Shown here: positions 4,784 through 57,816 of the stretch, in pieces
Layout: each line of letters begins with the position of its first letter
Numbering within the stretch: the first letter of the stretch is position 1
Source: Haliotis asinina
Lineage: Eukaryota; Mollusca; Gastropoda; Lepetellida; Haliotidae
Assembly: GCF_037392515.1 (NCBI RefSeq)
Contig: NC_090282.1
Coordinates: 35,019,054 to 35,083,053, forward strand
Direction of reading: 5' to 3'
DNA: 64,000 bases
Program-made: the position numbers and the translations under genes
Notes under the pieces: model-generated
Told to the model about the DNA's origin: nothing
The model's input: the letters and a program-made list of their open reading frames with translations, nothing else
The model's database searches: none

Positions 4784-7130
4784 AACACGTGCAAATGAAG
4801 AAAACTTCGATGCGAAGATCACGTGATCGACTGCACGTGCAAAACCTGATTTGGCACTAACGTCATTTGCACGACGAGTGGATGGGTTTGAGTGGGTTTT
4901 GCTAACGTTTTTCTAGAGTTAAAACATAGGGATCCCATTTCGGATACATAGATGTGTCATCAGAGTAAAAATATTATTATTATTATATTATATTATTTTT
5001 TAAAATTATCATATTTTCTACTAGGTTGTCTTGGAGTGTTTGTAGTCAGAGCCTGGTGGCAAAAACCAAGAAAGTCTTATCAGTTATATATATAAACCAA
5101 TCACAGCATAAATTTCCAAATTACAAATAGTGTTCATGTCATATTTAAACTTTTATAAAACCATTATTGCTGCACGGGGTGGAGTTGTGGGGATTTTAAG
5201 AAATTGTTGATAATTTTCTTAATAATTTTTGTAAATTTGATGTAGATGTAGGTTAACATATACCAAGTAATGCTGAATGTGGAAGGCATGGTATGAATGT
5301 GGTATCACCTTAAATGTGTTAAATTTTGGTGTAAACTAAGACTGTGTAATGCTATTTATCCCGAACAAAGTTTTTACATACTTAGATTAGATTCTTTTGG
5401 TAGGATTTAAATGTACTTGGGTTTTAAACGAGCTTTTAAACGAGTATGGGTTCGGTTATGTTTGGCTCTCCCAAGACAATGTGCCATTATTTGTAGCACT
5501 GTTTAAGCGGAGGTTAACTGATTGTTGAAAACAAATATTATAGTCCGTTTGTGGTGAAAACCTACCAATGAATTTCACCATAAACTAAAACGTAAATCGA
5601 ATAAAGACTTCGAATCCTCATGATTTTACCTTGCCAATTGAACATTTAAATCTCAGAATTTTATTCAATTTCGGATAAAAGTTGTTTAACTAACGATCAT
5701 AGATTTAAAGTGCTATTATTGTTTTGTATTTCACTGCAAGCAGACTATAGGAGCAATGCCATGAATTCATCCAGCCTTGTGCATTTTAAAACTGTTATAT
5801 CCTCATTGCCTCTTGATAATCACATGTTACGACTTAATGTAAGAGACTTAAGGATTCAATGCGTTACGGTGACTTATTAAGTGGAAAGAAACTAAGAACT
5901 CTGTTGTAATGTATAGGCTGTGTAATTTCGATAGAAATAAACATGAAGTCAACTTCCTGTTTGAATGTGATAAAACATTAGGAAAAGGTTTTTACCTCTG
6001 TGGAATAATTCAACAAATGCGAGTAAATTCACAAAGCTAATAACTTCTAATGGCATGTTGCTTTTATTGAACTGTGCTGAATTTATCAAATCAAAATGTG
6101 AATTGACAACTAGGATGCCTGTCTATGGCTAATATGTACAGTATGATTTGTTTTGCCTCTTGTACAAGGGCCTATTGCCTACAAACTGAAAAAACTTTAC
6201 CTTTACATAAATAATAATACATCAACGAGAGGTTCCAAGCTACCACGGTTAGAGTGACAAGTGCAGGTTTGTTGGTTTTAGATGGCCATGCCAGTCAGGG
6301 AGACTACTCTTATTTGTCGCTCTCAGGAAGCGGCGCGCTGAAATGCCAGCCGCAGATTGGCTGATAGGTTGAACTGTTCGCCATCTTACAGCAGTAAAGA
6401 TATAAGACGTTACGCCTCGTTTGTTTTCATGTCTGACGAATCGTTTGTTTGTAAGTGAACAGATCCCTTGGCTAAAACGAGCCGGAATCAGTACAAATGT
6501 CAGCCATATTATTATGATTTGGTAGTCTGAAATAAGGTTGTAGCTTTCTGCATCATCTAAAACTGTACGTCACAATGACTGTAGTCGATTTGTTTCGACT
6601 TGGTTTTGTTACGGTAGTTAAGAATGTCGGCACTCCCCAAGCAGTCATGATTTAGCATAACACTCTTGGTCTGAGGGTGCAATGTCACCTTGGGAAGCGC
6701 TATTCTTAGAGTGCTGAACAGGGAAATAGTACGGTCGTAACTGTAGAAAACTGTCAAATGTCGGTGATATTAGTATGTGGTAGCCTAAATTATGGCTGTA
6801 GCGTCCATCATTAACAAAAACTAAGACTGTTATTGTAACGGTGGATAGACAATACTGTTACCACCCCCATGCGCAGTCATGATTCAGCATAACACTCTTC
6901 GTTGGAGAGTGCAATGTCACCTTGGTAAGTGCTATTCTTAGCGTTCTGTTCTATAATGCAACTGTAACTAAATGAAAGAGCAAAACCTGAGCTGTAGGTT
7001 TGTGTATCGCCATCGTTTTTATGTAAAGGAAGGGAGCTCAAAGAAATGCGTCAATCCGTTTTATTGCACGGTTTGCTTTAGCAGCTAATGAGAAACTGAT
7101 TGTATTACTCATAGAAATGATGAGTCTAGA
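4352..7130 (+). repeat. 2.8 kb tandem segmental duplication, unit 1
   Basis: This stretch is repeated directly at 7131-9934 with only scattered base changes and a few small indels. The largest is an insertion of about 23 bp near 9079 in unit 2. Unit 1 starts inside the degraded Tc1 transposase and ends at TGAGTCTAG. Its contents are the 5' half of the Tc1, an AT-rich spacer, a decayed LINE 3' end and unassigned DNA. Confidence 0.95.
5430..6225 (+). mobile_element. Decayed LINE 3' end (in duplication unit 1)
   Basis: Frame-broken remnant of the C-terminal cysteine/histidine region of a LINE polyprotein. Near 5920-5978 it reads LCNFDRNKHEVNFLFECDKT, resembling the usual LC-C--E-E-HFLF-C pattern. 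A LINE-like 3' tail follows, containing TTGTACAAGGGCCTATTGCC and then ATAATAATAC. No intact protein remains. Confidence 0.55.
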
Positions 7131-9934: not shown

Positions 9935-11007
9935 GTTGATCCAGACATCGGAACATCATCACAGAATAATAACCCCTATTTCGAAAGTCCAAAATATAAA
10001 TGGATAATACTTGCCACACAGGAGTACCCTGTGGCGTGGTCGCTCTCTCTCTCGTGTATTTGAGGTCTCCAGGTTTGCAGCAGACTAGGGCGAAATAGGT
10101 AGCTCCCCTCTCTAGGGTCACCAACGGTCAATTTCACATGAATGAATTAAACAATTTACTGTCGACTATAAAATTCAATTATATACAACAAAACAAGAAC
10201 TTGTACTGTAAACAGCTATTTACAAAGACTTCTGTGTGACAGGTTTCATTTTTGGACACTAAACTATATTGAACATGTAATAATAATGATTGTTTACGGG
10301 ATCAGGCGCGAAGAAAGACAATTTTTTCGTGTGAACTCAGTAGGTTGCAATACCTATATCTAGATAGTATTAGTTATTTGGGGAAAAATAGAGTTAATAT
10401 GTTTTTTTGCAAAGCTCAAATGTAATCCCTGGCCTTTAAAAAAGCAATTGTAGGTACGCCACTGAGATTACTAAAACAATACATCTTCGTTAGGCATTTA
10501 GTGCCATTGTACGGCGAAGAAACTGTAGTCACGGTTTGGTAGCTGTTGAGGGAGATGATGAATAAGAGATATGTTTGTACATAGGATCTGGTGGCATCTC
10601 GTTGACTTGGATCAAATGACATGTCATTCTGAATGCCATAAACTATTCGTCACTCGCAGTGATGAGAAAAATCGGTTACCTCTGGAGCTAAAGAGATGTA
10701 AGATGGGAAAGCAAGTCAACAAAATACATCTAGGTCTACATCTAGGCGTCAAGATGATTTTTTAAGGAGCACTATCATCTCATTATATTTTGTTATCTAC
10801 CGAGAAATAATAATGTTTAGCAGAAGTCGATATGACTGACAGCAGAAACAGTTATATATTATAACACTGTCGTGCAGGTTTCTCCTTAGGGTGGACTTGG
10901 CTGGAAGGGTTCAGTCTGGCCACTGTATTCTAGTCTGTCCTAACACTCACAACAGTGTTAGTCAGGGGTGTGGCAGAGATTTGTACTCCCGGAATCCCAC
11001 GGACAGC
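9935..11007. other. Unassigned intergenic DNA
   Basis: No gene, repeat family or RNA is recognised between the tandem duplication and the 29-bp minisatellite. Confidence 0.5.
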
Positions 11008-13584
11008 TGAATGAGGCTTCAACTCCACCGTATCCCCGAAGGAGGCTTCAATTCCACCGTATCCGTGAACGAGGCTTCAACTCCACCGTATCCCTGAGCG
11101 AGGCTTCAACTCCACCGTATCCCTGAACGAGGCTTCAACTCCACCGTATCCCTGAACGAGGCTTCAACTCCACCGTATCCCTGAACGAGGCTTCAACTCC
11201 ACCGTATCCCCGAAGGAGGCTTCAACTCCACCGTATCCGTGAACGAGGCTTCAACTCCACCGTATCCCTGAACGAGGCTTCAACTCTACCGTATCCCCGA
11301 AGGAGGCTTCAACTCCACCGTATCCGTGAACGAGGCTTCAACTCCACCGTATCCCTGAACGAGGCTTCAACTCCACCGTATCCCTGAACGAGGCTTCAAC
11401 TCTACCGTATCCCTGGAGGCTTCAATTCCACCGTATCCCTGAACGAGGCTTCAACTCCACCGTATCCGTGAACGAGGCTTCAATTCCACCGTATCCCTGA
11501 ACGAGGCTTCAATTCCACCGTATCCGTGAACGAGGCTTCAACTCCACCGTATCCCCGAAGGAGGCTTCAACTCCACCGTATCCGTGAACGAGGCTTCAAC
11601 TCCACCGTATCCCTGAACGAGGCTTCAACTCTACCGTATCCCCGGAGGCTTCAACTCCACCGTATCCGTGAACGAGGCTTCAACTCCACCGCATCCCTGA
11701 ACGAGGCTTCAACTCCACCGTATCCCTGAACGAGGCTTCAACTCCACCGTATCCCCGAAGGAGGCTTCAACTCCACCGTATCCGTGAACGAGGCTTCAAC
11801 CCCACCGTATCCCTGAACGAGGCTTCAACTCCACCGTATCCCCGAAGGAGGCTTCAACTCCACCGTATCCGTGAACGAGGCTTCAACTCCACCGTATCCC
11901 TGAACGAGGCTTCAACCCCACCGTATCCCTGAACGAGGCTTCAACTCTACCGTATCCCTGAAGGAGGCTTCAATTCCACCGTATCCCTGAACGAGGCTTC
12001 AACTCCACCGTATCCCTGAACGAGGCTTCAACTCCACCGTATCCCTGAACGAGGCTTCAATTCCACCGTATCCCTGAACGAGGCTTCAATTCCACCGTAT
12101 CCGTGAACGAGGCTTCAACTCCACCGTATTCCCGAAGGAGGCTTCAACTCCACCGTATCCGTGAACGAGGCTTCAACTCCACCGTATCCCTGAACGAGGC
12201 TTCAACTCTACCGTATCCCCGGAGGCTTCAACTCCACCGTATCCCTGAACGAGGCTTCAACTCCACCGTATCCCTGAACGAGGCTTCAACTCCACCGTAT
12301 CCCTGAACGAGGCTTCAACTCTACCGTATCCCCGAAGGAGGCTTCAATTCCACCGTATCCGTGAACGAGGCTTCAACTCCACCGTATCCCTGAACGAGGC
12401 TTCAACTCCACCGTATCCCTGAACGAGGCTTCAATTCCACCGTATCCGTGAACGAGGCTTCAACTCCACCGTATCCGTGAACGAGGCTTCAACTCTACCG
12501 TATCCCCGAAGGAGGCTTCAATTCCACCGTATCCGTGGCTTCAATTCCACCGTATCCCTGAACGAGGCTTCAACTCCACCGTATCCCTGAACGAGGCTTC
12601 AACTCCACCGTATCCCCGAAGGAGGCTTCAATTCCACCGTATCCGTGAACGAGGCTTCAATTCCACCGTATCCCTGAACGAGGCTTCAACTCCACCGTAT
12701 CCCTGAACGAGGCTTCAACTCCACCGTATCCCTGAACGAGGCTTCAACTCCACCGTATCCCTGAACGAGGCTTCAACTCCACCGTATCCCTGAACGAGGC
12801 TTCAACTCTACCGTATCCCTGAACGAGGCTTCAATTCCACCGTATCCCTGAACGAGGCTTCAACTCCACCGTATCCCTGAACGAGGCTTCAACTCCACCG
12901 TATCCCTGAACGAGGCTTCAACTCTACCGTATCCCCGAAGGAGGCTTCAACTCCACCGTATCCGTGAACGAGGCTTCAACTCCACCGTATCCCTGAACGA
13001 GGCTTCAACTCCACCGTATCCCTGAACGAGGCTTCAACTCTACCGTATCCCCGAAGGAGGCTTCAATTCCACCGTATCCCTGAACGAGGCTTCAACTCCA
13101 CCGTATCCCTGAACGAGGCTTCAATTCCACCGTATCCCTGAACGAGGCCTCAATTCCACCGTATCCGTGACCGAGGCTTCAACTCTACCGTATCCCCGAA
13201 GGAGGCTTCAATTCCACCGTATCCGTGAACGAGGCTTCAACTCCACCGTATCCGTGAACGAGGCTTCAACTCTACCGTATCCCCGAAGGAGGCTTCAATT
13301 CCACCGTATCCGTGGCTTCAATTCCACCGTATCCCTGAACGAGGCTTCAACTCCACCGTATCCCTGAACGAGGCTTCAACTCTACCGTATCCCTGAACGA
13401 GGCTTCAACTCCACCGTATCCCTGAACGAGGCTTCAACTCCACCGTATCCCTGAACGAGGCTTCAATTCCACCGTATCCCTGAACGAGGCTTCAACTCCA
13501 CCGTATCCGTGAACGAGGCTTCAACTCCACCGTATCCCTGAACGAGGCTTCAATTCCACCGTATCCCCGAAGGAGGCTTTAACT
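11008..13584. repeat. 29-bp minisatellite, about 89 units
   Basis: Tandem array with consensus TGAACGAGGC-TTCAACTCCACC-GTATCCC. Variants alternate at a few positions: CCCTGAACGAGG, CCGTGAACGAGG, CCCCGAAGGAGG and shortened CCCCGGAGG, and AACTCCACC/AATTCCACC/AACTCTACC. Since 29 is not a multiple of three, the array passes through all frames and the common TGA closes one of them; it is not coding. Recurring orders of variants indicate higher-order duplication of blocks. Confidence 0.95.
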
Positions 13585-13944
13585 CATTTTATAAGTGTTC
13601 GGTTTAAACTTGGTTCTTTGAAAAGCTACAAAGGACCGACCTCTGTATGAGCAATTTTCAGCGTAACTAACAGAAATGAAACAAATTCATTATAAAGAGA
13701 CCAGGGTATTTCGACTCTTCCTTGTATGTTTTGAAGCAATGTGAATGAGTTCGGTTTGATGTGACATATGAACGTAATGTAGAAGGAAGTTGGAAGAGTC
13801 AGGCATGTGCCACCTGGTCGAAACCATACATAGCCACGGGTCTGGTGCTGACGAACAGAAGCAGAATCTAGTCGAACCCGGATTCCAACAACCATAGGTT
13901 ACTGGCGTGCTTGAGGACGTAACTCGACTGGGACATGCGTGCAA

Positions 13945-16768: not shown

Positions 16769-19700
16769 TCACTGATGTGCAATAGTGACAGATTTGTGAG
16801 TTCCAATGGATTTCACACACTGAATGATCACTGGGAAAAAGGCGGCACCCACAGCCACAGAGCCGAATATACGGAAAGGCAGACCGTACGATCCAGTCAA
16901 GTCGTACAGCGTCCCTGTAATTGAACAAAAATATATCATATTACCAAATATGATAACCGAAATATCAAAAATATTCAAACTGCAAATTCATTTGAGTTAC
17001 GCTTGACAACGGTACAAGAATCTATATCGAAAAGTCTCTCTCTCTCTCTCTCTCGAGTTTTTAGCCATAACGGTTGTTGTATGTTACTGTGAGTCTATGT
17101 GCTTCCGTCCCAAACTTTAAAACTTTGCACCCACCACTTATATCAGAAGTCTAATACAGCCACAAGCCTCAACACTATACTTACCGAGTTTGTTGTATGG
17201 CATGATTCCCTAGAGAACGTATAATGGCGCGATGGTGGGAAACAGGGAAACAGTAAGCAAGGACTGTTTTGTTAGACTGCAGTATGATATGTACTGCCCT
17301 TCCGTAGGCAACGCCCTATTGTTCGGAGTTTGAGTCACACTTGGTTACAACAGATCATTACTAGTCGTCCCCCTGAAAACATATTTAGCTAGATGAGAAC
17401 TAAGCACATTACCCATTAGTATTCCGAGCGTTGTGTTGGAGGTTCCAGTGACTGCCCCGCCAAGACCCATGGACACAGCATACATATCTTCCCCTACCAC
17501 TTGCAAGATAACTGAAAGGAAACGATTGGCTTAGATTTGCATCGGCCTTGCATGGCAAGTAGAAGCTTTAGCTATGCCCTGGTAAAGTAGATTCCAATGC
17601 TCCTTGCATCTCATTGAGAGTTATACCCTGTAATTCTGTAGCCTGGTATAGCATGTCTCAGGTGTCTATTCCAATGCCACAGATTGCCACTGTAGTCTTG
17701 TGGATAGTGTGTCTATCCAGAGAGCTGAAGGTCAGTGGTTCGATTTCACGCTCCATCATGCTTACACGTGTTGGTTGAAAGACTGAACATGTTATTGCCC
17801 TGGTGAATACCCTAGTGCCCACATCGGACAAGGACACATCGCCTGGGAGTATATTGAGCCTGAGTAGGGTATACATGTTGAACTTGCACGTGGTCTGCCA
17901 TTTTGCTAGCACTGTAAATCAGGCCGAAATCACACCCATAAAATGAACACACACACTCACTCACACAATCTTTGACTCACCCATTGCATAGGTTGAAACC
18001 ATGCCGCCTGCAGCCAAGCCGTATACCGTATAACAAGCAACTATCATGCCATGGGAGTCAGCCCAAGAGATCACTATCAGAGAACCACCGGACACCATCA
18101 CTGATAGACAGAACACGTGGAAGGTCTTCACGCCAGGGATCATCTGTATCAAACCTGCCATAAGGCGCATTGTACTGCTTGTCCCGTTGATTATCAACAG
18201 AAACGTTAGTCCCGTTTCTTCAGACAGACCCTTCGACATACCAAAGTCAACTGCAGTCAAGACAGTTGATGTAATTGAACCAAACCCTATTAGGCCACAC
18301 AATAAGTAAGCCCCATACAAGGGATTCAGTAGTCGGCGATATTTTGGCGCAGCCTTGACATCTGTACTGTTTTTGATCCGAGCTGTAGCTGGCACGCCAA
18401 GTGACGACGTTACTAGTAGACCAGATAGAGTAACATTCAGGTAAATACCGCTCATTATAAGAAGTGCACCCCTCCAGCCAAATTCTGTCTTCAGTGCTGT
18501 CAAGATGGTTGGAAAAACCATTGACCCAACACCTCCAGAGGACGTCAGTAGTGCTAATGCAAAGGCCTTGGCTCTTGGGTCACGAAATGCCAGCGTTACG
18601 TTGACGTTGTTTCCCAGATACACCATGCTACAACCACAACCTGAAATTCAAAAATCAAGATCAGCTATCTACTTAGACTAATGACCACACGTAACTACCA
18701 GTTAAAACGTAGCGTATACAGGGTATTACTGCGTATATGTACTGTACGTGTTGGCTGGCGTATGAAACTTCCGTGGACAGGATGACTGTAGATTATGGTC
18801 CTGTCAAAGTTGTTGGGCACACTTACATATACTGAACAACAAAAGAAACGCAACTTCTTGTCACGTTTCTTTAATAGAAGACATGAACATTACTTTTATG
18901 AGTTTTTTCGTCTCTTACGCCTCTTTTGCTGTTCAGCGCATATTGTCAGCTGATATGCATTGCATGTAAGACATGTACTTTGAGTAACAGGACATTGATG
19001 TACGATTAAACATAACATCCTAAAGCCTGCCTGTAAAGGCTGCATTACAAAGACCTCTGGGATCCAACAGAGGAAACATCTCAGAACAACATGCCTGCTT
19101 GATGAAGACACTGGAGAAACAACTGAAGTTTTGTCTTGGAAAAGAAAAATTGAAAAATAGAAAATGACTATGCAATGCCAGTAAACGGAACGTTAGTAAA
19201 TGACAGACTGAGTTAGTTTCACACAAGCTAATCAAGAAATTAAGCTTGACCGACCCAGTTAATTCCCAAATTCCCAAAGGAGTCAAGTGTGCGAGTGAGG
19301 GAGTGTATTCAGCCTCTTATGGGGTCACGTGTGTGAGTGAGGGAGTGTATTCAGCCTCTTATGGAAATCTCTTATGTGCTCTTCACAGATGAAAGCAGAT
19401 TCAGTTCGTCTTTCCCTGGCGGTAGGCAGACTGACTTATCGTTGTGAATCACATACGATAGTAGTGGTTTATACTACTGATGTTTGCTTGTGCTGGTTGA
19501 ACGGTTTGTCCTTAAAATTATACTGACATTCAGTTCTAGTCAGTTCTGAAGTATCCTTTACATGGGCTTTATATCATCTGACCGTTTATTAATGACACCA
19601 AATATACACTCGGTAGACCACAACTCACCCATCACCACGCCGACAGATATAACAGTGAAGATGTAACCGGTGGAGAACCAGGTGGCAAACAGTCCAAGAG

Positions 19701-22900: not shown

Positions 22901-22927
22901 TATATCATGTGCTATATCATGTGTTAT
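22901..22927 (+). repeat. 12-bp tandem array, left remnant
   Basis: Two units of TATATCATGTG(C/T) plus TAT. The array resumes in register and in the same orientation at 28021, on the other side of the transposon. Confidence 0.9.
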
Positions 22928-22955
22928 GATCCAAACCCAATAAGCAGGCACATTT
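22928..22955 (+). repeat. Left terminal inverted repeat
   Basis: 25 bp from 22931 are identical to the complement of 27993-28017. The outer three bases are GAT here and CAC at the other end. The inner part GCACATTTG resembles the internal 14-bp motif read in reverse (GTACATTTC). Confidence 0.92.
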
Positions 22956-23304
22956 GATGTCCCCATATCCTATTTGAAAATCTAAGCATATTATGTAAGT
23001 TGTTAAATGTAGTAAATATAGGGTAGAGTTAGGCCTTCTCTGACCGAAAGTTTCAGCTTTGTAAGTGCTTTAGTTATTGTGGAGTGAGGCTTTGAACATA
23101 CGGAAATGACATGTACGTTACTGTCCCAGCCTGAAAGTACACTATGTTAACTGTTATCTGTTTAAATTGCAGCTGCATTTGAAGATGTTTATATAACTTT
23201 CCTAGCTCTACAACATGGGAACTTCACATAATGGTGGTTGTTTTGACACTCGTTGGATTTCTGTTGTTGTGCGGTTGCACTTTTGGCGCGTCCCAAACGT
23301 CTGA

Positions 23305-24402
23305 GAAATGTACGTTACACAAACTTTGTTATTTCTCTATAGTACAATTAATGACTCATCATTAAAAACTATTAGTTAAATCTAAACTTTGTCATCATTC
23401 CTGTAATGAAATGTAGACCTTTGTGTCAATTTCAAACTCCAACACACAGATATACAGAATATTAAATTCTTAGTCAAAGAGTAATTTTAGCCTTGAAATG
23501 TACGTTACCACCTTTTTCTTCTGAACTAAGATTCAACTAATTCTTCCAATATAATCGAGCTTTGGTAACTTACATGGACTTTCAGCATCAAAAGTTTCAA
23601 TTCTATTTCAGTTTTGGTAAGGGAGATAATTAGTAATTTGATCAAATGTAAAATGTACGTTATCGAAATGTACGTTACCAACTTGTACGAAACTAACCTA
23701 AAAAAGTGAAAGAAGCTCCTTTTGAGTTTTGACATGTGCTTCCTGTCGTCTGCCATTTTGCTAGAGTGATGAAGTAACTTTCAGAAGATTACAAGATGTC
23801 CGGTATCATTGTATAACATCCTCGATCGTAAGGTGAGTTGACATATTTCACCAGAATGTTGTTTTTATGATACATAAGTAATTAATTCTATGTTCATTTC
23901 ATTCATTAATGCCTTAAATTGACAGATGTGCTCAACAGTATAAATTTCTTGTTAACATACAGATCTTGTGCTTAGCAAAACAGTTTGAAATGTACGTTAC
24001 CATTGGTAACGTACATTTCACTTTGAAGCAGGCATGCATAATTCCATGTAAATAATAACCATACTTGATGTTTGTCTAAACCTTTATGAGGTGTTGTTTG
24101 AAAGGGATTGGTGACGTCGAAAAAGTATAATTTTGATACTTTAACGATTTTAGTAATGTGATTCTTTGACTTTGTATATTATGATAAAATCTGAAAGTCA
24201 TCATTTCCTGGCATTCACGCCGAGTTTATGATCTGTATATCAGAGCAGTTCTACCTAATCATTAAAGAATGTTTTTTTCCTGTTCTAGATGTGGTGTACA
24301 TTATATCTCTAGCGATTGTGATGTTAGAAATTAGTTTTGATGGCATGTGAGTTAAACAGAAATTAGTAACGTACATTTCACTGAAATGGTAACGTACATT
24401 TC
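23305..24402. repeat. 14-bp motif cluster, left of transposase gene
   Basis: Copies of GAAATGTACGTTAC: plus orientation at 23305, 23495, 23665 and 23987, plus a variant at 23650 (AAAATGTACGTTAT). Minus orientation (GTAACGTACATTTC) at 24006, 24366 and 24389. The 23987/24006 pair forms an inverted repeat with a 5-bp spacer. No copy occurs inside the coding region. Binding sites for the element's own protein are the simplest reading (inference). Confidence 0.9.
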
Positions 24403-24416
24403 TTTTTGTATTTCAG
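23833..24416 (+). other. Probable 5'UTR intron of the transposase gene
   Basis: A strong donor AAG|GTGAGT is at 23830-23838 and an acceptor TTTTTGTATTTCAG ends at 24416, six bases before the chosen ATG. The upstream exon holds only a six-codon open frame (ATG at 23794). Four motif copies lie in the intron. Two of them are just before the acceptor, so protein bound there could affect splicing or transcription (inference). Confidence 0.55.
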
Positions 24417-24421
24417 CAACT

Positions 24422-26920
24422 ATGGCGAAGACAAGGGCTGAAATTCAGAAGGCCTATCGCGATCGGAAAAAGAAACAGGATGGCGAGGCATATATGGCTA
24501 AAGAACGAATGAGAAGAAAACAGAATTACATTCCCTCGTCTGAATTAAACAGGGTCCAGAGGGCCAAGCGTAACCTAAAGAACAGAGAAAATCTACAGAG
24601 ACACCGCCTTAAAAAGAAGCAGGAAAGGGCAAACATTGCACAACACAATGATGACAATCACAATGAGGCAGCTGGTACAAGTGGTTATGAAACTGAGGAT
24701 CATGGACAACCATTGATAGTCAGAATACCTATACCAAACGGAAGTAGAGTTGGACGAACTAGGAGGAGAAGCAGAGCTTTGGCAAATGCATATCGGTTAA
24801 TCCAAGAACTTAAGGTGAAAAATGACACTTTGTCAAAGAAGTGTGGATCTTTGAGGAAAACATTAGCTAGAAAATGTAGAAAGGTAGAGGTTGATACACC
24901 TCGGAGTAAAACTGAACTGCAAATGAGGAGTGCCCGACTTACAACAAAACAGAGAGAAAAGGTCAGAAAACATCTGCTTCTTGGGAATGTGATGCTTGCT
25001 GAGATTGCCACTACGCAGAAGAAAACACAAAGCAGTAAACGTTCAGTGTTGCATAGAATTGTATCTGGAAAAATCGTCAAAAAATACAGATGTTTGAGTA
25101 TGTTGAGTGCGGTTACTGGCTTGTGTCGTCGTAAATTGTCAAGGGTGTCCAGCAAAGAAATAGCCTGGTCCAGGGGCTCACGTAAGCGTGTTCTGCTCAG
25201 ATATAGGACACATGTTCTCCAATTTCTTGAGCGTGATGACAATAGTAGAGCACAGCCAGGTAAAGCAGATGCAAAGGTCTCAGATGGAGAAAAGGTACAA
25301 ACACGCGTCCTCACAGACTACATCTCCAACCTCCATATGAAGTTCAGGGCTGAAAATCCCGAGATCAACATTTCACTAGAGACATTTCGGCGCATACGAC
25401 CAAAGAACATTTTGCTCACTTCCTTTATTAGTCGCCACAGCTGTTTGTGTACAAAACACCAAAACATGGCACTACAGCTCAAAACACTTCGCAGTGTTGG
25501 TATTAACGTAACAGCAAATCCTGAAGCTTTCCTGAAAGAAGATCTTGACATGGACAACATTGCAAATCACCTTCCAGAAAACATTGTTCAGAGCCAGTGG
25601 AGTAGGGTGACTGTTGAAGAGAAGGGCAAGGTGAAGAATGTCACAAGAATAGTGGATATTGAAGTGCAAAAAGAACCATACATGGAAAACTTTAAAGTTC
25701 AAGTTTTGGAGTTTAAAGAACATGTTGACCGTGTGAAAAAACAGTATGCAGAAATCAGACGGTTGAAAGAGAATCTCCCACAGCATCATATGATTCTACA
25801 CATGGACTTTGCAGAGAATTACGGTTGTAAAACCGTTGATGAAATCCAAAGTGCTTATTGGAATAAAGTTGGTGTCACTTTGCATCCAGTTGTAGTTTAT
25901 TACAGGGATGATGCTGGGGAAGTTGTGCACCAGAGTTATGTGGCAGTTTCTGATGAACAGTCACACACAGCCTCCACGGTGTTGACTATCCTGAAGAAGA
26001 TCATGCCACAGATCAAATCACTGGATGAAGATGTCAAGATGGTCCATTACTGGACAGATAGTCCAACCAGCCAATACAGAAACAAAGTGATATTTAGTGT
26101 TGTGGCAAATCACGAGTCTGAGTTTGGAATGAAAGCCAAATGGAACTATTTCGAGGCCGGACATGGAAAAGGTCCCTGCGATGGCCTTGGTGGAGTCACA
26201 AAACGCAAGGCAGATGAATCTGTGAGAAGTGGCAGATGTGTTATACAGGATGCATATGACTTCTTCAGGTGGGGTGAAAAGTCAAGTCTGAAATCAGTGA
26301 AGTTCTTTTTTGTGCCCAAAGAAGATTGTCAGGAAACCATGAATGCTGTCAAGAAATTAACTCTGAGCACAGTTAAAGGAACAATGAAGATTCATGCTGT
26401 TGTTGGTCTTGGGATGGCTGCAGTTGCTGTAAGAAATGTCAGTTGCTACTGTCCTCTTTGTCTGAATGGTGGCCTCTGTGAGTCCTGGAGGACAGAGTCA
26501 CTCTCGAGTAATGAGCAACCCAGTACTGACCCCACAACCACACCTCAGACCATAGAGGAACAGAGTGAGGACGGTGATCCTAACCTAGCACAGGTTGGAG
26601 ATGCTTCCTCTGCATTTGGCCAAAGTGAACAGATGTTGTTTGCTGTTAATGAATTTGTCTCAGCTGTTTATGAAGGCAAATGGTACATTGGTAAGATTCT
26701 TGATGTTGACAACAATGATGACACTATCGAGATTTCCTTTATGCAAACCAGAAAGCAGCTTCTCCAATGGCCATCACATCCAGATGTCATCTGGTGCCAT
26801 AGGGCAGATGTTCTATGCAAGGTTAATCAACCTGTACCTTGTGGCAAGTCACGGCGAATGTTCAAGCTGAGTGGTGATGATCAAAACTTGGTTAAAGAGA
26901 AGTTTGAACATTATAAGTGA
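24422..26920 (+). CDS. DDE-like transposase candidate, 832 aa, uncharacterised family
   Basis: Single intact frame. I start it at the ATG at 24422 (MAKTRAEIQKAY), which follows a splice acceptor; an earlier in-frame ATG at 24386 lies in the predicted intron. The order is: a Lys/Arg-rich N-terminus (1-65), a coiled-coil-prone stretch near 115-150, a CLC--KH zinc-like motif (C341, C343, H346), and HMDFAENYG (D462). Next is a central fold with HYWTDSPTSQYRN (D546) and YFEAGHGKGPCDGLGG (E578, D587). Then come a Cys cluster C675/C677/C680/C686 and a C-terminal Tudor/chromo-like module from 746 (VSAVYEGKWYIGKIL ... FMQTRKQLLQWP). D462, D546 and E578 make a credible DDE triad with 31 residues between the last two. 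I recall similar DFAENY / SHGKG-DG proteins in invertebrate and fish genomes without an assigned function. The surrounding terminal repeats identify it as the element's transposase rather than a host gene. DDE chemistry is inferred. Confidence 0.82.
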   Translation: MAKTRAEIQKAYRDRKKKQDGEAYMAKERMRRKQNYIPSSELNRVQRAKRNLKNRENLQRHRLKKKQERANIAQHNDDNHNEAAGTSGYETEDHGQPLIVRIPIPNGSRVGRTRRRSRALANAYRLIQELKVKNDTLSKKCGSLRKTLARKCRKVEVDTPRSKTELQMRSARLTTKQREKVRKHLLLGNVMLAEIATTQKKTQSSKRSVLHRIVSGKIVKKYRCLSMLSAVTGLCRRKLSRVSSKEIAWSRGSRKRVLLRYRTHVLQFLERDDNSRAQPGKADAKVSDGEKVQTRVLTDYISNLHMKFRAENPEINISLETFRRIRPKNILLTSFISRHSCLCTKHQNMALQLKTLRSVGINVTANPEAFLKEDLDMDNIANHLPENIVQSQWSRVTVEEKGKVKNVTRIVDIEVQKEPYMENFKVQVLEFKEHVDRVKKQYAEIRRLKENLPQHHMILHMDFAENYGCKTVDEIQSAYWNKVGVTLHPVVVYYRDDAGEVVHQSYVAVSDEQSHTASTVLTILKKIMPQIKSLDEDVKMVHYWTDSPTSQYRNKVIFSVVANHESEFGMKAKWNYFEAGHGKGPCDGLGGVTKRKADESVRSGRCVIQDAYDFFRWGEKSSLKSVKFFFVPKEDCQETMNAVKKLTLSTVKGTMKIHAVVGLGMAAVAVRNVSCYCPLCLNGGLCESWRTESLSSNEQPSTDPTTTPQTIEEQSEDGDPNLAQVGDASSAFGQSEQMLFAVNEFVSAVYEGKWYIGKILDVDNNDDTIEISFMQTRKQLLQWPSHPDVIWCHRADVLCKVNQPVPCGKSRRMFKLSGDDQNLVKEKFEHYK

Positions 26921-27095
26921 AATAATTGTTCTCTCTTATAAACTGACTATGCTTGGCGAGAAAACACGTGTTAGTGTTGACTATACTTGATTTCAAGTTT
27001 GATATTACTGTTCGTGGATACTTTCAAGCGTTTCTGTACCCCTCTTTGTCATCAGTGTTGGTTTAGATAAACCAAGCTGTAGAGCAAATTCGTTT

Positions 27096-27821
27096 GAAAT
27101 GTACGTTACTTTAGATATAAAGGTTACAGAGTGGACAACTGAATGGTATTTATTTTATGGTTCTCTATTCTTTAATTTTATCTTACTAAGGAGTACACTC
27201 CTTCAGTAAATTGTGTTATAAATCAATTTATTTATTTATTTTTTAAAGTAAATAGAAGTTCTTCCTATCTTCTGCGTTATCCTGACATGTCTCATTTGAA
27301 CATTTCTGTGTAAAACTTCATTCTCATGAATCATTCAAGCTCTTTTTATTGTCAATGAGCCATAAAAAGCATTTTAGTGAAGTTAAATAACATTCACCTT
27401 TCGTGGAAGATCTGAAACAGATAGAACGTCTGATGCTGGGATTTGTGAAATGTACGTTATCTTTCTACACAGATGTTATATTGGCTTACGTGAGACCTTG
27501 GTTCAGGTATTTGTACATGTTTAACTGCTATACCCACTAATATGTACCGGTAAAGGACAAAACAAGTTTTTAAAGATTACTTGATACTCGATTAGTTTAG
27601 CTATGGAGTTTGAAATATCAGTGTTTGACATTTTCCATGTTCATGTTTGAGTGAGGTGTTTGTGTTATGGTGGCCACCGATCACATACCACTGTTTTTCC
27701 TGTAAGCATTGGCGTTCTGACACAAAATAAAAAATACTGAAGAAGTACAAGCTACTTGCTTTCTTTTGTATTTGCTAATGACCTATTTTAGTCATCCAGA
27801 AAGTCTGGTAACGTACATTTC
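27096..27821. repeat. 14-bp motif cluster, right of transposase gene
   Basis: GAAATGTACGTTAC at 27096 (plus), a one-base variant ending TTAT at 27447 (plus), and GTAACGTACATTTC at 27808 (minus). With the seven exact copies and one variant on the left, this gives eleven sites inside the element; I saw no exact copy elsewhere in the window. Confidence 0.88.
27726..27731 (+). terminator. Probable poly(A) signal of the transposase gene
   Basis: AATAAA about 800 bases after the stop codon, still within the element; no closer canonical signal was seen. Confidence 0.5.
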
Positions 27822-27992
27822 CAAGCTGCTTTTGTAAATACCGGACAGCAATGTTATAACGATCATAGCTTAAAAAGTAGACAACTGTTTTTGAAAATAT
27901 TTTGGATTTGAGATCCTAAGATATGACCCTACGAAAGGAATAGATAATTTTCGACCTTCTTAAAAACTTATTTTGAAGAATTTTGAACTGTG

Positions 27993-28020
27993 AAATGTGC
28001 CTGCTTATTGGGTTTGGGTG
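27993..28020 (-). repeat. Right terminal inverted repeat
   Basis: 27993-28017 is the exact reverse complement of 22931-22955. The preceding base gives GAAATGTGCCTGC, a degenerate form of the internal motif GAAATGTACGTTAC. Confidence 0.92.
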
Positions 28021-28128
28021 TATATCATGTGTTATATCATGTGTTATATCATGTGTTATATCATGTGTTATATCATGTGCTATATCATGTGCTATATCAT
28101 GTGCTATATCATGTGCTATATCATGTGC
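28021..28128 (+). repeat. 12-bp tandem array, right part
   Basis: Nine units of TATATCATGTG(T/C), five of the T type and then four of the C type. It is the insertion target of the transposon and continues the array at 22901-22927. Confidence 0.95.
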
Positions 28129-29039
28129 TGAGTCTGAGTAGTTCGATGAAAGAGTACACACTTATTTTACTTAATTTTGTGTCATTACGTTGGGCAAAAC
28201 ATTAATACCGTGGGCACGATTCCTCCCCTGTAAAAATGCTATCAGAGTTTCTGTGCGAAGTTCTGTACACCCTTTCGAATCAAAGGACCGAAAAACGCAC
28301 TCCATTTAATTAAGACCTGAGTAAAAATCCTTTGAAATGGCCATAAATATGCATGCAATTTCAGTAACGTGATCATTGTCAGTATTTCTAATCATTTAGT
28401 TTTTGTTGTTCTTGTTGAATCAGATGAAACATGTTTGGAACATCAACTTCAGTTGTGATGTATGTATCTGAGAATATATACTGGGAGTTATTAATAAAGC
28501 GAGTGAGTGAGTTAGATTTAACCTCACATCGGTAATATTTCACCCATGTCCTGACGAGGTCATTAATAAAGGGTCAAATGATATATAACACGTGTTAAGA
28601 AACACGTGTTGCTCCGGAATAACGGAACTAGGAGTATCATCGTCATGTTTAATGTGTTGACAAACATAACACATCGTAATATGAAGGCAAACAGTTCAGT
28701 CAGCACTAGCAAATATCACATGTGTAGACAAAACCCCCCAAATTGAACATTACAGTCATGAAGAACTCGGTCATTCAACATTTTGTGTACCCTCCTCACT
28801 AAGTCTCTCTCCTCCGAGACTTTGGTGCACCTTGTTCTCTCACCTTATCAAGTTCACTAAAAAAACTTGCGGAATTGCATTCCATTCCTATACTAGAGCT
28901 CTACAGAGTCCTCGGATATCCACTGGTGCTGCGTTACCTGCGTTCACACGTCGACACGTCGTGTTCATCCCAGGCTTGCTCAATCGTGTTGATGAATGGT
29001 GAGCATGCCGACCACTCCATCAGCACTACACCCTGGTGT
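28129..29039. other. Unassigned intergenic DNA
   Basis: No gene or known repeat recognised. Confidence 0.5.
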
Positions 29040-31283: not shown

Positions 31284-34200
31284 TCACATAGGTGCAAGAG
31301 TGACAGATCTGCGTGTGCCAATGGATTTCACACACTGAATCATCACGGGGAAAAAGACGGCGCCCACACCCGCAGAGCCGAATATCACCAAAGGTAGATT
31401 ATACGATCCAGTCAAGTCATACAGCGTCCCTAAAATGGAGGAGAAAAAATACGTCACCAAAGTATGATTGCTTTAAAATATCCGAACCTGGTGAACAAAA
31501 ACAGAACAGTTTTTGCCGTTTTCCAGGAGGGCTGTAACTAATACGTTTCAACACAGAGATAGTACTAACTCTCGCTTATCGTGATTTATTTGTGTCAGTG
31601 TATAAACAATATATTAGGGCAAATGATCTCAATACATCTGTATTCATTGCCGAGTGCACCTACGAGCCTCCTCCGTTTTGTGAACAATTCCTCGTTGTCG
31701 GATGACCAGAGTATCATTTGTCACGACCGATCGCTCCTTTCACAACCTTTTCTAAGGTTAAGCTTAACTCCTATTCTTTAGCATTGAACTGAGGTTACCT
31801 TAGTGACTTGCTATCACCTTATTAGTGCTTTCAGAAAGGAGGCCCAGGTCATTACCAGGCAAGCTATTCTTGATATGTCCATGGCCCTTCTTAAGCTCAT
31901 TCTTACCACATTGGCTACGATCAAAGTTACGATTTCTTGGGGCAACGAACGGTTCGAGAATAAAGGCCCAGAAGCCTTTACCACACGCCTAGCTGTGACT
32001 TTGAGAACGAAACGTATTACCCATTAGTATTCCTAGCGTTGTATTGGAGGCTCCCGTGACTAAACCGCCCAAGCCCATTGACACAGCATACATGTCTTCC
32101 CCAACCACTTCCAGGATGACTGCAAGGAAACGTGTTGTCAGATTACCTACTGTTGTCAGAACTACTTCCCAGCTATGTCGTCATATGCGCGTCATTACAT
32201 GAATAAACAGCATAGATCAGGCCCCATCCTCCACCTGAAGACTGATCGTACATTTTGTGCAGAACTGATCATCGTAAGACGCGGTGCCTCCTACATGTCT
32301 TTTACAAACACACAGATCGCATCTGGATTCCAGTAAAAGGAGTTTCTACTCGTATAGTGAAAGGTTTCACTGAGGTTGCATCGAACCGCATAACCTACAT
32401 CCTACAAGCATCGTGAAAGTGCTATTAGCATCGCTGATATACACTGACGTACAATCACACTCGCCGCTCTATAGGTACAGCGATATTTATAATGACCATA
32501 ACTTCAACATCGCATATGTATGACTCACCAATCCCTAGGGTCGCTATCATTCCACCTGCACCCAGTCCATAAACTGTGAAGCAGGCAATTATCACGTCAT
32601 AGGAGTCAGCCCACGATAACACTATCAGACAGCCACTGGACACCATCACTGATAGACAAAACACATGGTAGGTCTTCACTCCAGGGATCATCTGTACCAC
32701 ACCTGCCATAAAACGCGTTCCAGTACTTGTCCCATTCATTATCAACAAAAACACTATTCCCGTTTCTGCAGACAGGCCCCTTGAGATTCCAAAGTCAACT
32801 GCAATCAAGAGAGTTGCCGAGTAGGAACCAAACCCTATCAAGGCACACAACAAGTAAGCCCCATATAAGGGATTCAGTAGTCGCCGATATTTGGATGTGC
32901 CCTTGACATTTGTCTTGTTTTTGATCCGAGCTGAAGGTGGTACGCCAAGAGATGACGTTACAAGAAGACCTGATAGAGCGACATTCAGGTAAACACCGCT
33001 TATTATAAGAAGTGCTCCCCTCCAGCCAAATTCCTTTTTGAATTCCTGCAAGATATTTGGGAAAATTATTGCCCCAACCCCTCCAGAGGACGTCAGTAGT
33101 GCTAATGCAAAGCCCTTCGCTCTTGGGTCACGAAATGCTAATGTTACGATGACCATGTTTGACAGATACACCATGCTGGATCCCCAACCTGAAATCCAAA
33201 ATCACGAATCAGCCAGAGGTAATTATCACACTTTTATAATCTCCGCTTTTATCCGATGTAAAGCAGGGTCTTTCCAGAATTAGGTAGACCTCTTCTGTCA
33301 TGTCTTGTCGTGTCTGAACCAGAGTTTTGAAGTGCACGTTTCGAAACCTCATATCAGGTTAAATTTCGACCATTTCATAACCTAGGTTTTGAAACAGTCG
33401 TTATATAACCTGATCTGGGGTTTTGAAATGACCTACACTTGTGATTGATACAACTTTGCCTTCCTATCACCGATCGTAAATTTCATGTTATTGAAAGGTT
33501 CCAATATACAGTGGCGATAACTGGTTTCGATACTGCAATCATTCCCTCTCCAGCTTGGCGGTTGTATCTTCTAGGCTACGAAGAATCGCTGTGAAGACGG
33601 AGACTGTTGGTCAGTATGAACAATGTGTTCCAGGCGGGTACTGTGGTCAGCGCGCTTGCTTTGCACGTGTAGAACGTGCAAGGCGAGGTGTTGGCAGCGA
33701 CTGTTCCATAATTTGCGGACTGTTCCATCAATATGGGTCTTCTTAGTATATGCACACAATATGCAACAAATTGAAAATAATGCATATTTGTGTTTACGTT
33801 CATGATGGCCATAAGTCGAGTAAAACACTTCTCCTCGGTTTGGGTACCAAATATAAACTCTTGGAGTCGGGAAGATTTTCCCGCGGGTTTGCACTTGCTA
33901 CCAAAACCCCGGAGTCCTGATTTATCCTTTACCACCACAACTTGTTAAAAGGGAAGAGTACGTTTTACAGGTTTTGCTGTATAAACAGATGCTGACAAGT
34001 ATTGCATTAATGAGACATGATACAACGGTAGTCGGTGTAAAAAAATAGAAGATTCAGTGGATGAGAAACACACATTTGCTGATGCACATAATCATCCTGT
34101 GACACTGGGGCGGTGGGCGTAGGCCTGGTGGTTTAAACATTCACTCGTTATGCCGACCATCCGGGTTCGATTCCTTACATGAATACAATGTGTGATGTCC

Positions 34201-46112: not shown

Positions 46113-47354
46113 CAGTGGTTCAAAATTATTGAGAATAGCTAAAGCATTTCATATTATTAAACGAGAACAAATCAGATAAAATTGAATGTATTGTGAAAGT
46201 AAACTGACCTTTTCATGTTGTGTAGGTAACAATTTAATATTTTTATCTCCTTGAGCTTCACGGCACAGTCTAAGACGGGTAGGCATACTTCCTATCAGAG
46301 AGGTTAGTGTCTCGTGAGTTATGCTATCCCAGTATCGTACCACTTCTCTCTTCATGTCTTCAATTTTTGTCAACCCCTTTTGATTCACACATTCCTTCAT
46401 CATCCCCGAAATGTTCTCAATGGGATTTAAGTCAGGATTATATGCAGGAAATGGTAATGCAGTCACATTTTTCTCCTGAAACCACTGCTTGGCATGTTTT
46501 GCGGTGTGTTTAGGATCATTATCTTGCTGCAAAATCCAGTCATTTCCATAAAACACATGTGCACTTGGAAGGAGAAAATTATCTAATATGTTAGTGTAGC
46601 GTTGACTTGTCAGATTTCCCTCAAACACACACAGCGGGGTCGTTCCTAATAAGGATATCCCTCCCCATACATGAAACTTTGGGCTGTATTTAGGTCGTCG
46701 ATACAACGGTGCTGACGCAGACTTTGTCCATATTTTCACATTATTGGGATATACCCATATTGAGCTTTCATCAGTAAAAATCACATTTTCCCAGTCAAAG
46801 TTTTCATGTGCCAAACACCACTCAACACGCCTGTCTTTATGTTCTTGTTTCATGAGAGGAGAAGGAATTCCAGTCCTACAACTGTTGATCCCCTTTCTAT
46901 CATTTCATACCTGATGTTGGAGATGCTTGCCCTTTGCTTTTTAGACGCTAAAATACCCAGCCGGGCGCGATCTGAGAAGTCCAATTTTTTGGGTCTCCCT
47001 GCTCCTTTCTGGTGCCCAAAATTCTTTCCCTCTTTAAAATTCTTCCTAATCCTATACACAGTAGAAACAGGAGTTCCTGTTCTCTCTGCCAATGTATTTA
47101 CATCATCAATTCCTTGATTACACAACTCAAAAATCATCCTTCTTTTATCTTCAGCAGACATTGTTGACAGTGCTGAGGAAAATGGCGTCTGCTACAAATT
47201 CAGGGGAGGTAACTCTAATTGTACTATACTCAGTAGGCCAAGATGAGTTACCTCCCTTATACCATTACTTAGTTTTAAGTATCAGTGAATCAGTTGAGGT
47301 GTTAGGATAGCTCAAAGTAAGAAGAAAAATTCTCAATAATTATGAACCAGACTA
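46113..47354 (-). mobile_element. Nearly intact Tc1-family transposon
   Basis: Ends CAGTGGTTCAAAATTATTGA (46113) and the complementary TCAATAATTATGAACCAGAC (ending 47354), differing by a 2-bp indel and few changes. They are flanked by TA at 46111-46112 and 47355-47356, the Tc1 target duplication. Length about 1.24 kb, normal for the family. It contains one transposase frame with a single frameshift. Confidence 0.92.
46149..47161 (-). pseudogene. Tc1 transposase, one frameshift
   Basis: The N-terminal part from 47161 (MSAEDKRRMIFELCNQGI) has the paired-like helix-turn-helix, with AERTGTPVSTVYRIRKNF and a GRPKKL linker. The C-terminal part has the DD34E catalytic core: IFTDESS (first Asp), ILQQDNDPKHT (second Asp), and NPDLNPIEN (Glu, 34 residues after the second Asp). 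The two parts are in different frames, separated by a one-base change between about 46850 and 46880. Otherwise no stop interrupts the roughly 340 residues, so the break is recent. Relatives elsewhere in the genome could still mobilise this copy. Confidence 0.9.
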
Positions 47355-56718: not shown

Positions 56719-57816
56719 TCAGATACTTGTGTTTTCCCGTTTAGGACAGTGTTTGTATGGCTTGACAGTGAGAAAATTGTTATCCGAATGTGCAATGTGG
56801 CTGACACAGGAACCCTCCTCTGCCGATCTGTTTCGGTTACTGCTATTGGACGTTTTGGGGAACACGTTTGCTCCATGATTAGAGAAAGAAGACCGTTGCA
56901 AAGGTTGACGCCAGAAGAGCAGTGTTTTCTTGTAGCCTTCTCTAAAGCTGCGATTCATGATACCGTAGAGGAACCAATTGACGCATGAGTTGGTGAAGGA
57001 TGTGTATGAGCAGGCGATGTGAACGGTAGCAGGCCATGTGTCGTCTCTGTCAGCGATGGTAGTGATCATGTAAGGGCTCATAAGAACCGCAAAACAGAGA
57101 AATACAGCAAACAGTGTCTTGATCAGAGCTATCTCAGAATGCTTGGGGGCTCTGTTCGACGACAGTCCTGCCTGTCTGATCCTGTTTTTGGCACTCCTGA
57201 CGTAGCGGTAGATGAAGAAATTACAGATGAAGATGATGATGGCAGGAACGGCAATGCTGCCAATGAGGAGAAAAAGAGTGTAACCGAAGTTAGCTGTTCG
57301 GTCATATCCGCAGTAATGCAACTTCCGGTCATACCGGAAGCGGCCCCAACCAACTAGCGGGGGAAGAGTCATGAGTGCGGCAACGACCCATATGCAAGCA
57401 CAGATTGTAACAGTCGTGTATTTCGTGAAGACGCGGTGGTATGTGTCGCTGTGGCATACGTTGAGGTAGCGGTTTACTGAGATGACGGTGAGGGTCAGGA
57501 GAGACGCAACGTAGGCGCACACGATAAGGAACCCATTAAAGATGCAGTGTCCAGGTCCAGCTACTGAGTACCTCCCCGTTAGCAGATCCACCAGCAGGTA
57601 GGACACCACGTATCCTAGAATTATCAAGTCGGCCACAGCAAGGTTGACAATATAGATACCGTGGAGGGTTCGGAACACACGATTGGTTGTCATGGTAACA
57701 ATAATGAGGAGGTTTCCAAACGTACCCGTGACGACGTAGAGTATACCGATGACGATGAAAACGACTCTAGCTTCCTGGCTTATTTCGTATCCGACGTACG
57801 GGTCTGTTGAGGACAT
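56719..57816 (-). CDS. Melatonin-receptor-like class A GPCR, 365 aa, intronless
   Basis: Seven-transmembrane rhodopsin-class receptor in the plasma membrane. TM1 has GN with N35 and TM2 NLAVADL with D63. C91 before TM3 and C169 in extracellular loop 2 form the usual disulphide pair. Other landmarks are W143 in TM4, P191 in TM5, P248 in TM6 and NWFLY (280-284) in place of NPxxY. TM3 ends NRYLNVCHS, with NRY in place of DRY. NRY followed by -CHS, and a TM7 N-x-x-x-YG motif without proline followed by -N-FR--Y, are typical of melatonin receptors (NRY-YICHS, NAIIYG), so a melatonin-like or related orphan amine/lipid receptor is most likely. Unlike melatonin receptors, TM6 reads CFAVLMSPY without the CWxP tryptophan. 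The 80-residue tail is Ser/Asn-rich. The start MSSTDPY is the first Met of the frame. Ligand unknown. Confidence 0.88.
   Translation of the reverse strand: MSSTDPYVGYEISQEARVVFIVIGILYVVTGTFGNLLIIVTMTTNRVFRTLHGIYIVNLAVADLIILGYVVSYLLVDLLTGRYSVAGPGHCIFNGFLIVCAYVASLLTLTVISVNRYLNVCHSDTYHRVFTKYTTVTICACIWVVAALMTLPPLVGWGRFRYDRKLHYCGYDRTANFGYTLFLLIGSIAVPAIIIFICNFFIYRYVRSAKNRIRQAGLSSNRAPKHSEIALIKTLFAVFLCFAVLMSPYMITTIADRDDTWPATVHIACSYTSFTNSCVNWFLYGIMNRSFREGYKKTLLFWRQPLQRSSFSNHGANVFPKTSNSSNRNRSAEEGSCVSHIAHSDNNFLTVKPYKHCPKRENTSI

Follow-up and report, generated by a model that had tools for sequence, protein, structure and literature searches.

Several superfamilies of eukaryotic DNA transposons have been described in terms that can be compared with a single locus. 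Sola elements are characterized in one account by a DDD transposase, 4-bp target-site duplications, a length of mostly 2-9 kb and variable ends (PMC10741241), and a mollusc survey gives an average of 5445 bp for bivalve Sola1 elements and reports that Sola appeared restricted to bivalves (PMC10294476). Academ elements are said to carry either a nuclease, with 3-4-bp duplications, or a helicase, with 9-10-bp duplications, those of AcademX being 3-4 bp (PMC10045372), and the mollusc survey gives them an average of 5565 bp in bivalves (PMC10294476). One description places C(2)C and H(3-4)H motifs between the second D and the last acid in EnSpm/Mirage/Chapaev/Transib, and attributes CAC..GTG ends to EnSpm and 6-bp duplications with TAYGG..CCRTA ends to IS3EU (PMC12730594); another assigns a [C/D]xxH signature in the same interval to hAT, P, MuDR, Kolobok and Dada (PMC9587614). 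Fixed duplications are described for Kolobok (TTAA), Tc1/mariner (TA), Merlin and Zisupton (8 bp each). Here we analyse an element at 22928-28020 of a 64,000-nucleotide stretch of the gastropod Haliotis asinina (hereafter the window; contig NC_090282.1, positions 35,019,054 to 35,083,053 of the forward strand), which we take, with a probability of roughly 0.87, to be a very recently mobile, autonomous DNA transposon of the cut-and-paste type. Its status as a mobile DNA transposon, as such a known kind of element, is well shown.

The element contains a single frame of 832 codons (24422-26917), open throughout and bracketed by 25-bp inverted repeats, and the list of open reading frames holds no other large frame inside 22928-28020. 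An in-frame ATG 12 codons upstream, at 24386, would give a protein of 844 aa; the proteins of relatives, however, align from the 24422 start. A preliminary description of this DNA had claimed an intact element of about 5.1 kb with exact repeats around one uninterrupted gene, which is what was found, and had proposed a search for further copies with the same ends. This search located a second copy at C1:86097123-86102215, 99.96% identical to the window copy, with two mismatches in 5093 bases (at 23218 and 24003, both outside the gene). The likeness between the two copies ends exactly at 22928 and 28020, and a segmental duplication is excluded because the two loci are unrelated beyond these edges. 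In the 1.14-Gb assembly the 25-bp terminal repeat occurs four times with up to three mismatches, and these occurrences are the ends of the two elements; the same repeat read backward gave no match in the assembly at this tolerance. Only two full-length copies of the exact window lineage were found.

A protein search of the assembly gave at least 62 matching stretches, 54 of the 266 first-look candidates having been scored, and 20 places were fetched with 10 kb around each (cited below by locus number), the window copy making 21. Exact inverted repeats of at least 14 bp lie on both sides of the gene in the window copy and likewise in half of the fetched loci (L021, which is the sister of the window copy, L022, L024, L025, L026, L028, L030, L031, L035 and L036). 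The sequence of these repeats differs by lineage: CCAAACCCAATAAGCAGGCACATTT in the window copy and L021, CCAAAACCCAATAAGGAGGTCCAA in L022 and CACCAATTCTCACGAAATGTGCACC in the L025 group; scans of the assembly found the L022-type ends at 9 places and those of the L025 group at 25. Imperfect inverted repeats, with no clear target-site duplication, were seen in L023/L029, L033/L037 and L038. The elements are about 4.8-5.1 kb long. That diverged relatives carry inverted repeats of their own agrees with the earlier proposal that terminal repeats mark this family of proteins as mobile. Scans of viral contigs and prokaryote genomes, each made with only 2-6 short peptide patterns, confirmed no relatives. 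Three loci had additional peculiarities: the ends of L027, of the L025 group (C12:56383624-56396498), are 12.9 kb apart, and this copy probably carries nested insertions; L045 (C7:35119900-35120310), a miniature element only about 0.2 kb long, has L022-type sequence at both ends and no clear target duplication; and in L038, of another lineage, a 19-bp unit is repeated in tandem about 23 times downstream of the gene, at 6038-6468.

Target-site duplications were resolved in 10 of the 21 loci. Six of them are 4 bp long: ATGA (L021), ATAT (L022, where the edge was placed by likeness to other ends, at CGCC), ATTA (L025), TATG (L026), TTAA (L031) and TAAT (L035). Two are 3 bp, TTA in L028 and TAT in the window copy (a 15-bp reading is also possible), and two are 5 bp, AAAAG in L030 and ATATA in L036 (3 bp is also possible). 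For the window copy, excision of 5093+3 bases brings a 12-bp tandem array back into register (spacing 5096); a 4-bp duplication was rejected because it would disrupt this register.

A search for empty sites had also been proposed, and uninterrupted sister sites were aligned for three copies. The joined flanks of L030 have seven matches, namely its own left flank and six uninterrupted places matched along the full 240 bases; three of the six were aligned, each with one AAAAG against two at the filled site, and two of these three have five extra bases about 30 bp away. The joined flanks of L021 gave at least 40 matches (40 of 70 candidates scored), two of which are its own flanks; among those scored, 37 of the 38 foreign matches extend over the junction, with identities of 73-86%, and the four sister sites that were aligned have a single tetranucleotide, with substitutions, at the junction. 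For L035, with 40 of 297 candidates scored, there were at least 41 matches. One of them, foreign and 92% identical, reads through the junction and has TAAT there only once; the others among those scored come from the flanks of L035 itself or from repeats in its right flank. The flanks of L030 and L035 resemble, by eye, Tc1/mariner-type transposons, and the many sister sites would follow from the location of these copies within such repeats. Since the resolved duplications are 3-5 bp long and the sister sites hold single copies, the target is cut on insertion with a stagger of 3-5 bp, 4 being the commonest value. The recent activity suggested in the preliminary description is borne out by the near-identical second copy, by relatives with matching ends of their own and by these uninterrupted sites.

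The protein carries the three motifs listed in the preliminary description, DFAENY starting at residue 462, WTDSPTSQYRN at 544 and GHGKGPCDG at 580. In eight aligned cores (alignment A2, window residues 433-690, 258 aa encoded at 25718-26491), 31-70% identical to that of the window, D462, D546 and D587 are invariant. Residues were also counted over the 20 fetched loci, as read from tblastn alignments: position 462 is D in 19 and His in L040; position 578 is E in 16, Ala in two (L038 and L040) and a gap or uncovered in two; position 587 is D in 15, Gly in two (L025 and L026) and a gap or uncovered in three. In RNase H-like enzymes the third acid follows the last strand. D587 is probably the third catalytic acid, since it is kept in every lineage, Gly being confined to the sister copies L025 and L026 in a group that otherwise retains D587, and since it is located, by eye, after the last strand. 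E578 is not favoured because one lineage has Ala in its place in each of its two members. An RNase H-like fold is inferred for the core. Of the DDE-like acids proposed earlier, D462 and D546 are nearly invariant; for the third, D587 and E578 are both compatible with conservation. Likewise, the Cys cluster that had been reported is present (C675, C677 and C680), and only C675 and C677 are invariant in a further alignment (A1). Between the window copy and L022 dN is 0.32, with synonymous sites too diverged for an estimate; within groups dN and dS are both small (0.0079 and 0.0091, 0.021 and 0.037, 0.0085 and 0.0126), a pattern expected of copies that decay once inserted.

Outside the gene, the window element contains an array of short motifs. 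The sequence GAAATGTACGTTAC (up to two mismatches) occurs 12 times in the element, always outside the gene and on both strands, and not once in the remaining 58,907 bases of the window; five two-base-block shuffles gave a mean of 0.2. L022 also has 12 sites, in similar order and orientation. The centre of the motif is TACG in 12/12 sites of the window and 8/12 of L022, and TTCG in 10/12 sites of L023 and 5/6 of L029, GAAATGTTCGTTAC being the contrasting form. Not all lineages possess such an array, because the L025 group has only one or two sites and L033, L034, L037, L038 and L039 have none. We interpret these sites as probable transposase-binding sites that change along with the protein, a function in regulation being a serious alternative.

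The C-terminal region was compared with PDB sequences at E values up to 10: 11 of the 12 matching sequences are PHF19, PHF1, Agenet or DUF724 proteins (E 0.075-1.6), and the best match, to a designed repeat protein, has an E of 0.0071. We take the PHF19 and PHF1 entries to be Tudor proteins. Pfam Tudor_4 matches the C-terminus of four of seven members, with a best E of 0.0073, under the cut-off. The region thus weakly resembles Tudor/chromo barrels, and the Tudor-like C-terminus of the preliminary description is retained at this sub-cut-off level. The lineage of L033, L034 and L037, whose proteins are about 30% identical to that of the window, has an extra domain before the C-terminal barrel; in L033 and L034 this insert shows an ADGNCL...NHF pattern, which we presume to be OTU-protease-like, and a Pfam scan of L033 and L037 did not confirm it.

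Database searches were performed with the protein and with a profile of its core. No PDB sequence matched the whole protein or the core profile, Pfam and NCBIfam gave nothing above the cut-off for either, and PHROGs nothing below E 0.08. DUF5614 (E 0.0077 with the protein and 0.0024 with the core, both under the cut-off and in one member only) was taken as a chance match. Among the papers listed by literature searches none was noticed that names this core, the motif strings not having been used as queries. Profiles were also built from 15 of 36 IS3-type loci (16 were chosen and L079 was dropped for a stop) and from 6 of 37 IS30-type loci; they scored 15.4 and 16.7 with the core, 40 shuffles of each reached 19.5 and 21.9, and the reversed controls gave 12.3 and 16.6. 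A kinship of the core with IS3/IS30 (rve-type) transposases was rejected, the scores being within the shuffled range. After D546 the window protein has no [C/D]xxH signature, only an ExxH at 578-581. C(2)C and H(3-4)H are absent from residues 547-586; the sole C(2)C after D546 is at 677-680, and no H(3-4)H occurs anywhere after D546. Kolobok, Tc1/mariner, Merlin, Zisupton and IS3EU were rejected on their fixed duplications, those found here ranging between 3 and 5 bp, with TTAA in one copy only.

These observations are consistent with the following mechanism. The 832-aa protein would be a transposase, with D462, D546 and most likely D587 (alternatively E578) in an RNase H-like core. Its binding sites would be the terminal repeats and possibly the dispersed 14-bp motifs; it would excise the element and join it to its target with a stagger of 3-5 bp, which host repair would fill to give the target-site duplication; that the Tudor/chromo-like C-terminus selects chromatin is a speculation. 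Because no Pfam model covers the core, annotation will probably label such genes uncharacterised, and the defined ends of the element allow copies to be removed from gene counts and the lineage to be placed. The near-identical pair, whose gene is intact, would lend itself well to testing the activity of a type of transposase for which no relative of solved structure was found by sequence, and with the internal array one could test whether a transposase and its binding sites change in concert. The possible 5'-UTR intron of the gene was placed by eye (Table 1).

Table 1. Coordinates of the element and of its parts in the window.
Feature	Position	Strand	Basis or remark
Complete element	22928..28020	+	5093 bp; edges common to two copies, 2 mismatches in 5093
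Left terminal inverted repeat	22931..22955	+	25 bp, exact
Right terminal inverted repeat	27993..28017	-	25 bp, exact
832-aa putative transposase gene with stop codon	24422..26920	+	open frame; start aligned with family
Upstream non-coding region	23108..24402	.	9 of 12 GAAATGTACGTTAC copies (up to 2 mismatches), both strands
Downstream non-coding region	27096..27821	.	remaining 3 GAAATGTACGTTAC copies
Candidate 5'-UTR intron	23833..24416	+	AAG/GTGAGT ... TTTCAG, by eye
D462 codon, putative first catalytic acid	25805..25807	+	D in 19/20 fetched loci
D546 codon, putative second catalytic acid	26057..26059	+	D in 20/20 fetched loci
D587 codon, favoured putative third catalytic acid	26180..26182	+	invariant in 8 rows of alignment A2
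C-terminal region, weakly Tudor/chromo-like	26627..26917	+	PDB and Pfam sequence matches
Left copy of duplication TAT	22925..22927	.	12-bp array register
Right copy of duplication TAT	28021..28023	.	duplication analysis of window copy
Right part of 12-bp tandem array, insertion target	28021..28129	.	tandem repeat analysis

The rest of the window contains two similar open frames that flank the element, at 17961-18626 and 32455-33174 (-), which we take to be transporter (MCT/SLC16-like) exons. A frame at 46149-46853 (-) presumably encodes a Tc1-like transposase, and a single-exon frame of 365 aa at 56719-57816 (-) is, we assume, a rhodopsin-type GPCR. A 29-bp tandem array of about 90 copies occupies 11007-13585.

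Several points weigh against reading the locus as a transposon with the core proposed here: no Pfam, NCBIfam, PDB or IS3/IS30 profile ties this core to a known transposase, conservation alone does not choose D587 over E578 as the third acid, the duplications of 10 loci are not uniform in length (3 to 5 bp), and no duplication was resolved in 11 of the 21 (in L024 the right end is decayed, in L027 it is outside the fetched DNA, and there are nine others). Were the gene a domesticated or ordinary host gene, segmentally duplicated, with inverted repeats that are incidental, the two full-length copies of the exact lineage would be accounted for; we give this explanation almost no credit, because the copies share nothing past 22928 and 28020, target sites are duplicated and have uninterrupted sister sites, and relatives possess inverted repeats of their own. 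For the autonomous transposon that we prefer, a place has to be found among superfamilies. The core might represent a eukaryotic DNA transposon superfamily that has no name yet, which we suggest only tentatively. Such a superfamily could be recognized, if it exists, by the core HxDFxENY ... [ST]DxxxxQYxxK ... GHGKGxxDxxGG with the spacing D-83-D-40-D, lineage-specific ends, 3-5-bp duplications and a histone-reader-like C-terminus. It might conceivably also include about a dozen internal binding-site-like motifs in some lineages, changing with the transposase, and a protease-like domain in one.

Among known systems, the IS3-like (rve) and IS3EU transposases share with the window protein the 40-residue spacing from D546 to D587. 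The best stretch of the IS3 profile pairs D546 (TDSPTSQYR) with HSDQGWQY of IS150, at a score not above that of shuffled columns, and IS3EU differs by its 6-bp duplications and TAYGG..CCRTA ends from the 3-5 bp found here. An Academ lineage without the usual nuclease or helicase would match in the 3-4-bp duplications of AcademX and in element length, which is comparable to the bivalve average; we hold it to be unlikely, given that Academ carries a nuclease or a helicase and neither was recognised among the Pfam hits of this protein, that no other large frame is present and that two duplications are 5 bp long. CACTA elements typically contain repeated internal motifs. Membership of the EnSpm/Mirage/Chapaev/Transib group, or EnSpm/CACTA/Chapaev (CMC), would agree with the array seen here and with the CACC..GGTG ends of the L025 group, which resemble the CAC..GTG of EnSpm; it is very improbable in view of the single C(2)C after D546, located outside the interval from D546 to D587, the missing H(3-4)H and the fact that only two of the ten duplications are 3 bp. 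That the family is an ordinary member of Sola, perhaps already catalogued, has a chance that falls a little short of even; the mechanism would be the same and only the filing would differ. Two 3-bp and two 5-bp duplications depart from the Sola description, as does a gastropod host from the one survey in which Sola was seen, among molluscs, only in bivalves. The unassigned status given to the family in the preliminary description holds insofar as the core finds no sequence match in Pfam, NCBIfam or PDB that would name it, and is open to doubt insofar as the published description of Sola fits. Judged by that description only, each of its features fits at least partly: the DDD residues, if D587 is right, the 4-bp duplications, found in six of ten cases, the size of about 4.8-5.1 kb, beside the bivalve Sola1 average, and the ends, which differ by lineage; compared in this way, Sola appears to be the known superfamily that fits best.
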